The position numbers and the translations under genes were made by a program. The notes below the pieces were generated by a model. It did not search any database. It worked only from the letters and a program-made list of their open reading frames with translations, and was not told where the DNA came from. A stretch of 64,000 nucleotides of DNA. Source: Deinococcales bacterium. Its GTDB lineage: Bacteria; Deinococcota; Deinococci; Deinococcales; JAAFIG01. Below, piece after piece: positions 34,773 through 36,754 of this stretch. The stretch is from assembly GCA_013298595.1 (NCBI GenBank), contig JAAFIG010000014.1, forward strand, positions 47,908-111,907. The letters are read 5' to 3'. Every line of letters begins with the position of its first letter. Within the stretch, counting starts at the first letter, position 1.

Positions 34773-35144
34773 TTAGACGATTTCATCAAATGGATTTAAG
34801 GATTTTAAATTTGCAATCCAACTAAAATCTTTGACATTACGAGTCACAAGCGTTAATGGATTAACCATCGCAGTTACAGCCACAATCGAATCGCCTAATC
34901 CCATTTTCTTTTGTTAGCGCAAAGCAACTGCTTGATCTACAACTGCACTCGAGATTGGTAAAATCTCTGCAGCAGCAAACAAGTCTTCCAAGACTGATTT
35001 CTCGAGTGGTGAAATTTTATGAAAACCAATCGTTTCAATCACATTAATAGCCGAGATCATCGTTGGATGCTCGAGAATAAAGTCATGCAAAAATTCGTGT
35101 TCTGGTTGGGTTGCGTAAATAAGGATATTGCTGTCCAGCAGCAT
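34773..35144 (-). pseudogene. VapC-type PIN toxin interrupted by an in-frame TAA
   Basis: The first 76 codons encode a PIN N-terminus (LLDSNILIYATQPEH, then ISAINVIETIGFHK) ending in VDQAVALR, then TAA at 34914-34916. The same frame continues for 46 codons as QKKMGLGDSIVAVTAM, VTRNVKDF and NPFDEIV before the natural stop. The acidic residues in GDSIVA and NVKDF lie beyond the stop, so the short product should be inactive. Related toxins have Gln-Gln-Lys here; one C-to-T change (CAA to TAA) explains it. The antitoxin gene upstream is intact. Confidence 0.85.
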
Positions 35145-35398
35145 TACTCTTCCTCACGTCCTGGTAGCTCACGATCTGTTCGAGTTTCTTTTTGCCATTC
35201 AAGTGGATCGCCAAACGAAGAGCGTTGACCTGACCGCGTGAGTCTCTTTAAGGCAGCAACCATCGCTTGACGGTCTGAACCTTTTTTGGATTCGTGCAAT
35301 ACAGTCACTAAAACCTCAGTCGCTTCGGTCTGCAATGGGCGTTCAGCCAGCCATTTAATTGAATCACCCTCAAGAATTGCTTTGTAGGTTTGCATCAT
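35144..35398 (-). CDS. Antitoxin partner of the broken PIN toxin
   Basis: The product is 84 aa: QTYKAILEGDSIKWLAERPL, then EVLVTVLHES and an acidic/basic C-terminal tail WQKETRTDRELPGREE. The small N-terminal beta unit followed by a charged tail is typical of VapB-like antitoxins whose tail wraps the PIN domain. Stop and toxin start overlap as TAATG. TAAAGT (35406-35411) lies 7 nt before ATG 35398, back to back with the tyrS promoter. Confidence 0.7.
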   Translation of the reverse strand: MMQTYKAILEGDSIKWLAERPLQTEATEVLVTVLHESKKGSDRQAMVAALKRLTRSGQRSSFGDPLEWQKETRTDRELPGREEE

Positions 35399-35441: not shown

Positions 35442-35450
35442 TGCTATATT
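35442..35450 (+). promoter_or_regulatory. Extended -10 promoter of the tyrS leader
   Basis: TGC-TATATT (35442-35450) is an extended -10; no good -35 is seen at 16-18 nt. Seven bases (the CTCGAGT stretch) separate it from ATG 35458, so the leader-peptide message should be leaderless. Confidence 0.6.
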
Positions 35451-35457
35451 CTCGAGT

Positions 35458-35496
35458 ATGAATTTTTCAAAGCGATATTATCCTCGAGCTTTTTAG
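35458..35496 (+). CDS. Putative tyrS leader peptide with tandem Tyr codons
   Basis: ATG 35458 opens a 12-codon frame MNFSKRYYPRAF ending at TAG 35494-35496. Codons 7 and 8 are TAT-TAT (35476-35481), followed by CTCGAGC. An intrinsic terminator and then tyrS come next. A regulatory peptide with codons for the amino acid whose charging enzyme lies downstream is the hallmark of ribosome-mediated attenuation. It is translated here by hand and too short to be supported by homology. Confidence 0.65.
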   Translation: MNFSKRYYPRAF

Positions 35497-35548
35497 GTGG
35501 CTCGAGTCAAACGTGTTTTCTCGCGCCCCGTGCATTCGGGGCTTTTTT
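35483..35548 (+). terminator. Attenuator of tyrS: protector, antiterminator and terminator hairpins
   Basis: Protector: CTCGAGC (35483-35489) with GCTCGAG (35500-35506). Antiterminator: GGCTCGAG (35499-35506) with CTCGCGCC (35520-35527), seven of eight pairs. Terminator: GCCCCG (35525-35530) with CGGGGC (35537-35542), then six T. The three are mutually exclusive in the classical order. Stalling at the Tyr codons would mask the first arm and favour read-through into tyrS. Confidence 0.65.
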
Positions 35549-35560
35549 ATGGAGTGATTT

Positions 35561-36754
35561 ATGAACAATTTAAGTATTGAAGAACAAATTAGATTGATTC
35601 AACGTGGCACAGTGCATTTGCAACCAATGGATGAATTAAAAACCAAACTCGAGTCTGGGCGCAGACTGATTATCAAACTTGGCTGCGACCCAACCCGTCC
35701 AGATTTGCACCTTGGGCACGCTGTGGTACTCCGCAAAATGCGTTTATTTCAGGATTTAGGGCATAAAGTAATTCTGATTATTGGTGATTTTACAGGCATG
35801 ATTGGCGACCCAAGTGGCAAAAGCAAAACCCGTCCACCATTAACGCTCGAGGAAACCCGCGCCAATGCCAAAAGTTATATCGAACAGGCAACACTGGTTT
35901 TAGATGCCAACCCTGATAAACTCGAGATTCGTTATAATTCCGAGTGGTTACAAGAAATGCGTTTTGAAGAAGTGATTCGCCTCAGTGCTAAGTACACCGT
36001 GGCGCAAATGCTGACCAGAGAAGATTTCAGTAACCGTTACAACAATGGCACACCGATTAGTTTGCATGAGTTGTACTACCCGCTTGCCCAAGCGCAGGAC
36101 AGCGTGGCAATTAAAGCCGATATCGAACTTGGTGGCACCGATCAACTCTTTAACTTAATGGTTGGGCGTGATATTCAACGCGAATCTGGACTGGAACCGC
36201 AAATTGTACTGACCACACCATTACTGGTTGGTTTAGACGGCGTAGAAAAAATGTCCAAGAGTTTAGATAATTACATTGGTATTTCCGAACCTGCTGATGT
36301 GATGTTCTCAAAAATCATGAAAGTCCAAGATAGCAGCCTCAAAGAATACATCATGTATTGCACCAATCTCGAGGTCGAAGCAACTCTTGCTCTCGGCGCA
36401 GTACAAGCCCATAGAGTTTTAGCTCGAGCTGTGGTCACAGAATTTCATGGCTTAGATGCTGTCACTGCTGCCGAAATGAGATACGACAATGTTTCAAAAG
36501 GCGGTATTCCCAGCCAAATGCCAGAAATTACCATTCCAAGCGAAGAATTCTCGAGTGGAAGCATCAGTATTTTGCGCTTAGCAGTACTTTCAGGATTTGC
36601 CAACAGCAACGGCGAAGCCAAACGCATGATTCAAAATAAAGGCTACAAACTCAATGGCGAAACGGTGACTGATGAAAAGATGATGCTCGAGGTAGCAGAA
36701 CCAGTGGTTTTGCAAAAAGGTAAAAACGATTTTAAGCGATTAACTCGAGGGTAA
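35561..36754 (+). CDS. tyrS: Tyrosyl-tRNA synthetase
   Basis: The product is 397 aa. Class I signatures are HLGH (in PDLHLGHAVVL) and KMSKS (in GVEKMSKSLDN). The tyrosine pocket segments YPLAQAQDSVAIKADIELGG and GGTDQLFNLMVGRD are present, and an S4-like C-terminal domain ends the chain. The sequence is of the TyrS2/TyrZ subgroup rather than the E. coli type. It charges tRNA-Tyr. GGAGTG lies 6 nt before ATG. Expression is probably set by the attenuator upstream. Confidence 0.96.
   Translation: MNNLSIEEQIRLIQRGTVHLQPMDELKTKLESGRRLIIKLGCDPTRPDLHLGHAVVLRKMRLFQDLGHKVILIIGDFTGMIGDPSGKSKTRPPLTLEETRANAKSYIEQATLVLDANPDKLEIRYNSEWLQEMRFEEVIRLSAKYTVAQMLTREDFSNRYNNGTPISLHELYYPLAQAQDSVAIKADIELGGTDQLFNLMVGRDIQRESGLEPQIVLTTPLLVGLDGVEKMSKSLDNYIGISEPADVMFSKIMKVQDSSLKEYIMYCTNLEVEATLALGAVQAHRVLARAVVTEFHGLDAVTAAEMRYDNVSKGGIPSQMPEITIPSEEFSSGSISILRLAVLSGFANSNGEAKRMIQNKGYKLNGETVTDEKMMLEVAEPVVLQKGKNDFKRLTRG

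Follow-up and report, generated by a model that had tools for sequence, protein, structure and literature searches.

The window analysed here is a 64-kb stretch of a 4.58-Mb metagenome-assembled genome of a Deinococcales family (hereafter G000), and it carries tyrS together with a putative regulatory leader lying directly in front of it (Table 1). An earlier note on this DNA had described a leaderless 12-codon peptide with two adjacent TAT codons before tyrS, followed by a protector, an antiterminator and a terminator; checked against the sequence of the 64-kb window, every one of these elements is present base for base. The -10 element lies 7 nt ahead of the leader ATG, and transcription would be expected to start at this ATG, 8 nt past the -10 element. 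The leader stop and the start of tyrS are separated by 64 nt. Upstream, two small adjoining ORFs (34914-35398) occupy the minus strand, divergent from tyrS, and neither gave an NCBIfam match. The second of them (MLLDSNILIYATQ...) resembles the start of a PIN-domain toxin, and the two are perhaps a VapBC-like pair, possibly truncated.

Table 1. Features of the tyrS leader region, in positions of the 64-kb window.
Feature	Positions	Strand	Remarks
Extended -10 promoter, TGC-TATATT	35442-35450	+	-10 hexamer TATATT at 35445-35450; no good -35
Predicted leaderless leader-peptide ORF, MNFSKRYYPRAF	35458-35496	+	12 codons; ATG at 35458, TAG at 35494-35496
CGA TAT TAT, conserved Arg codon and two putative regulatory Tyr codons	35473-35481	+	TAT TAT at 35476-35481
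Protector 5' arm, CTCGAGC	35483-35489	+	Sequence, fold; identical arms in G002
Antiterminator 5' strand, GGCTCGAG	35499-35506	+	Predicted partner: terminator 5' arm, only while a ribosome stands on the Tyr codons
Protector 3' arm, GCTCGAG	35500-35506	+	Sequence, fold; identical arms in G002
Antiterminator 3' strand, CTCGCGCC	35520-35527	+	Overlaps terminator stem by 3 nt; identical in G002, CTCGCCCC in G003
Intrinsic terminator, GCCCCG-TGCATT-CGGGGC and six T	35525-35548	+	Stem-loop 35525-35542 (6 G-C pairs, 6-nt loop), U tract 35543-35548; sequence, terminator prediction, fold
tyrS Shine-Dalgarno, GGAG	35551-35554	+	Sequence
tyrS, tyrosine--tRNA ligase	35561-36754	+	397 aa; TIGR00234 equivalog, 325.5 bits versus cut-off of 113.8

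The protector stem consists of seven perfect pairs, and seven of the eight positions of the antiterminator pair, the remaining one being a U-C mismatch. Since the terminator and the antiterminator share 35525-35527, and the antiterminator and the protector share 35500-35506, the three pairings are mutually exclusive, in the classical order that had been claimed for them. Judging from its sequence, the terminator would be expected to end transcription in the cell.

We traced tyrS first in 61 relatives and afterwards in a set of 111 genomes from the class, which in our judgement does not seem to include Deinococcus proper. The closest comparison is missing, because the assembly of the same-genus genome (G001) is without tyrS. 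A search of the sister genomes with the leader DNA gave no DNA-level match, and homologous leaders were therefore found via tyrS. Two genomes of the same family, each of another genus, carry a predicted leaderless tyrS leader followed by a terminator: G003 (MSQLNNRYYSPMTFLV, motif NNRYYSP) and G002 (MFSQLHTKRYSPRANV, motif TKRYSP). Leaderless tyrS leaders recur in a second family, as MSQRYYTF with a clear terminator in G012 and as MMLRY without a clear U-tract terminator in G008; the third member of that family (G004) showed no tyrS leader. Behind the G008 leader (reverse strand, locus L004) runs a long stretch rich in C and poor in G, which might be a Rho site. At some 45 tyrS loci of three other Deinococcales families no comparable element was seen, and tyrS itself looks leaderless in most loci of two of these three families (f4, f5).

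All five tyrS leaders have a TANNNT box 6-7 nt upstream of the ATG and no Shine-Dalgarno, and the hexamer CGA TAT is invariant among them; an intrinsic terminator stands between leader ORF and tyrS in four (G000, G002, G003 and G012). The expectation that tandem Tyr codons and the CTCGAG pairing would persist in sister genomes was borne out in part. A Tyr codon and the leaderless start are found in all five genomes, and with the terminator they are conserved across three genera of the family; tandem Tyr codons occur in three of the five leaders (G000, G003, G012), and the CTCGAG pairing is kept in G002 and lost in G003. Among these five leaders, with identical arms in G000 and G002, no compensatory changes were seen in the protector or the antiterminator. 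What these leaders conserve is the predicted leaderless start, CGA-TAT and, in four of them, a clear terminator further down; the helix order is not conserved.

Each of the eight Tyr codons in the motif is TAT, although in every one of the five genomes TAT is the less used Tyr codon (44% of Tyr codons in G000, 23% in G003, 11% in G002, 38% in G012 and 6% in G008, computed, like the Arg shares, from the longest ORFs in the loci retrieved). The product of these frequencies puts eight TAT out of eight at about 1e-5 by chance, on the assumption that the leaders are independent, which does not hold fully for related genomes. The adjoining CGA makes up 18% of Arg codons in G000, 13% in G003, 11% in G002, 8% in G012 and 14% in G008. 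Slow codons at the regulatory position are typical of attenuators. The leuS leaders of the same lineage resemble the tyrS leaders in this, with CTA as the regulatory codon in four of four; in three of these four genomes the share of CTA was measured, and it came to 0.6-2.9% of Leu codons.

Within the window the leader stands out from its background. A scan of both strands of the 64 kb for leaderless mini-ORFs (TANNNT, 6-7 nt, ATG, 5-25 aa) returned 19, of which the tyrS leader is the sole one with YY and also the sole one with a terminator-like hairpin within about 100 nt. The CTCGAG motif does supply the protector arms, as had been proposed, and it is also a genome-wide repeat and not specific to this device: 413 copies occur in the window versus 6.9 expected, the next commonest palindrome reaching 50 copies, and 14 consecutive CTCGAG pairs are spaced 13-22 nt apart. 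Given this hyper-abundance, two neighbouring copies are not rare and the protector could have arisen by chance; a CTCGAG hairpin by itself is weak evidence, and the CTCGAG arms are partly incidental, the repeat being on offer throughout the genome for any hairpin. The tyrS loci of the three family genomes contain 6.7-7.4 copies per kb, compared with 4.6 in G008, and the repeat behaves like HIP1 of cyanobacteria. Paired CTCGAG copies likewise form the arms of hairpins in the leaders or terminators of leuS, metS, proS, leuA and homocitrate synthase.

The switch was simulated by folding the RNA left uncovered by the ribosome, up to and without the 3' arm of the terminator. A first ribosome footprint (A site +14) masked the leuS and metS antiterminators; the values used afterwards, +9 and +11, were chosen after seeing the folds. 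For G000, sequestration of the terminator 5' arm amounts to 0.7 nt in the absence of a ribosome, rises to 6.0 nt when one is stalled at the second Tyr codon and is 0.6-2.0 nt when one has reached the stop. In G002 the equilibrium probability of the terminator is 0.98 with no ribosome, 0.10 with a stalled one and 0.99 at the stop. The contrast is matched by 1.2-1.5% of shuffled spacers in G000 (4.0% with CTCGAG blocks kept whole) and reached by 0 of 400 shuffles in G002 (1% with CTCGAG kept), percentages that are uncorrected for the choice among the several footprints and measures tried. Once complete, the terminator of G000 has a probability of 0.73-0.75 at equilibrium in every ribosome state, so that the antiterminator would have to act kinetically, by forming first. 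G012 switches between no ribosome and a stalled one (0.94 to 0.17) and does not at the stop, switching and pairing are weak in G003, and in G008 neither switching nor pairing is visible with the simulation model. Applied to the whole set of leaders, a test on energy alone failed to discriminate for most of those of tyrS. The helix order given in the earlier note is probably right for G000 and G002. The protector and antiterminator pairings, which drift between genera, seem moderately supported by the folding, and as switching is weak in G003 and lacking in G008, the exact pairings are less certain than the principle of attenuation.

Leaders of the same kind are found at other genes of the lineage, counted among the genes searched and not across whole genomes. 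Leaderless leaders with cognate codons, followed by terminators, precede pheS (..SPF..), leuS (..SGL or SAL..), metS (..RM..) and proS (..RP..), and leaderless WWW leaders with terminators precede trpE in four genomes (L183, L182, L185, L181). In pheS, leuS, metS and the three tyrS leaders of the family, 39-51 nt separate the first regulatory codon from the terminator stem, with about 47 nt in most. The default fold of the leuS leaders (L164, L163, L165, L166) and of most metS leaders (L172, L170, L167, L171, L169) is the antiterminator, with no protector; this design would amount to a two-segment attenuator, and on this folding model absence of translation should give read-through. The pheS leaders (L103, L104, L106, L102) have a strong hairpin (z -2.5 to -4.0) with differing arm sequences; the hairpin contains the leader stop codon or lies next to it, and stops a few nt short of the terminator, without overlap with the terminator stem. 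Leaders are also present before thrS (..TTRTP..) and serS (..SSF.. SSPxGD), in most cases with no U-tract terminator. In these thrS (L116, L117, L119, L120; TTRTP/TTRTPRGV) and serS leaders (L130, L131, L128; SSFxxSSPxGD), the final codons hold a short G+C hairpin (ACCCCTCGCGGGGT, TCCCCTGCGGGGGA). In two genomes (L198, L199), homocitrate synthase is preceded by leaders that contain KK and have terminators of the CTCGAG type. No leader was found in the regions upstream of valS, ileS, hisS and trpS, nor a Tyr leader upstream of tyrA.

With about an even chance of being right, we propose that this Deinococcales lineage uses leaderless peptide attenuators where Firmicutes use T-boxes, at least for tyrS, pheS, leuS, metS and proS and probably also for thrS and serS. 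Each would read one or two conserved regulatory codons, placed at the spacing of about 47 nt in most leaders of tyrS, pheS, leuS and metS and rare in tyrS (CGA-TAT) and leuS (CTA). Some of the stems would be built from CTCGAG, and the leuS and metS devices would be of the two-segment type that reads through when translation is absent.

For the window itself, we are largely confident that tyrS is preceded by a ribosome-mediated transcription attenuator whose leader peptide senses the charging of Tyr-tRNA; the sensing of an amino acid is supported because a rare Tyr codon is conserved and because leaders with cognate codons precede other synthetase genes. RNA polymerase would start at or beside the AUG of the leader, whose 12 codons would be translated by a 70S ribosome without a Shine-Dalgarno. 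With charged Tyr-tRNA, the ribosome would reach the stop codon at 35494 and cover the antiterminator 5' strand, and the protector would form once the ribosome is released there; in either situation the terminator could fold and tyrS would stay untranscribed. With uncharged Tyr-tRNA, the ribosome would stall with a TAT codon in its A site, covering the protector 5' arm and leaving 35499-35506 free to pair with 35520-35527. This pairing would draw three bases out of the terminator stem and let the polymerase continue into tyrS.

The stall at the Tyr codon could also be coupled to the terminator by a different switch, either through co-transcriptional interference or in a two-segment arrangement as proposed for leuS and metS. 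We regard this as possible, if doubtful: conservation covers the Tyr codon, the predicted leaderless start and the terminator and not the pairings, the conserved pheS hairpin misses the terminator stem, and leuS and metS default to the antiterminator, but the classical pairings do exist in G000 and G002, with shuffle tests at 1-4% by one measure or other. It is improbable, in our view, that the leader acts after initiation in some other way, by Rho-dependent termination or by translational coupling or reinitiation at tyrS. The composition downstream of the G008 leader, together with its want of a clear U-tract terminator, would suit the Rho route, and a role in coupling or reinitiation has been proposed for leader genes (PMC4833913). 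Reinitiation typically bridges a short distance, whereas here the 64 nt between stop and start hold a strong intrinsic terminator and tyrS has its own GGAG.

That the terminator is simply constitutive, or left over from an upstream transcript, with a mini-ORF arisen by chance and no regulation by tyrosine, appears very unlikely. Intergenic terminators are common and the tyrS mini-ORF is short, but a leaderless start with CGA TAT recurs in five of five leaders against codon bias, cognate leaders also stand before several other synthetase genes, and the genes upstream of tyrS are divergent, so that the terminator cannot end an upstream operon. Control by a T-box riboswitch or another known RNA family can be set aside almost entirely. 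A T-box needs a longer leader than this one; scanned with Rfam, the window returned only a tRNA, no T-box or other such family matched at gathering cut-offs in the window or in 20 leader loci (five of them tyrS), and no T-box match was found in the tyrS leader at E up to 10. The lone weak Rfam match over the leader was anti-hemB, at 18 of 49.5 bits and thus below cut-off. What speaks for a T-box is that synthetase genes are usually controlled in this way in Firmicutes (PMC1262725).

Read as a peptide attenuator, the tyrS leader shares with the trp, his and pheST attenuators of E. coli a short ORF rich in the cognate codon, a downstream gene for the same amino acid and, for the predicted helices, the order protector, antiterminator, terminator. 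Unlike them, it is predicted to be leaderless, lacks a Shine-Dalgarno and has tyrS as its target, and tyrS leaders have one or two regulatory codons where the E. coli attenuators have a run. tyrS is a textbook T-box target, and the tyrS T-box of Bacillus likewise senses uncharged tRNA-Tyr to antiterminate tyrS, but does so by direct tRNA binding and with no translation. We know of no peptide attenuator described for tyrS, and none was found in titles, abstracts and passages of the open-access literature searched, so that the present leader would be, to our knowledge, the first. PMC1262725 gives a known or predicted attenuator for pheST and predicted ones for Streptomyces leuS and trpS, and reports none for tyrosine. 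The Streptomyces cases are, like ours, classical attenuators before a synthetase gene outside Proteobacteria, in another phylum and for another amino acid. A survey of attenuation in synthetase operons (Lopatovskaya 2010, as cited in PMC4833913) might contain a relative of the tyrS leader.

Leaderless sensing has a parallel in the polycysteine sORFs of mycobacteria, which sense the amino acid (Canestrari 2020, as cited in PMC9031893 and PMC13236596). They share with the proposed tyrS sensor the leaderless start, the codon-based sensing of one amino acid and the control of the next gene, and differ in acting on the translation of cysteine genes, in having many cognate codons and in having no intrinsic terminator as output. 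Closer in phylogeny, de Groot and colleagues are said to have predicted, in 2014, 14 leaderless leader peptides for transcription attenuation in Deinococcus deserti, a member of the same order (Deinococcales) as G000. A leaderless synthetase attenuator regulon such as the one proposed for this lineage was not found in the open-access literature searched. The tyrS leader would belong to a leaderless attenuator set that covers several synthetase genes. With regulatory codons that in tyrS and leuS are rare, and conserved despite a strong codon bias, this set offers a clean, testable case of how small a number of codons suffices for a ribosome-based sensor and of how leaderless translation is coupled to transcription.
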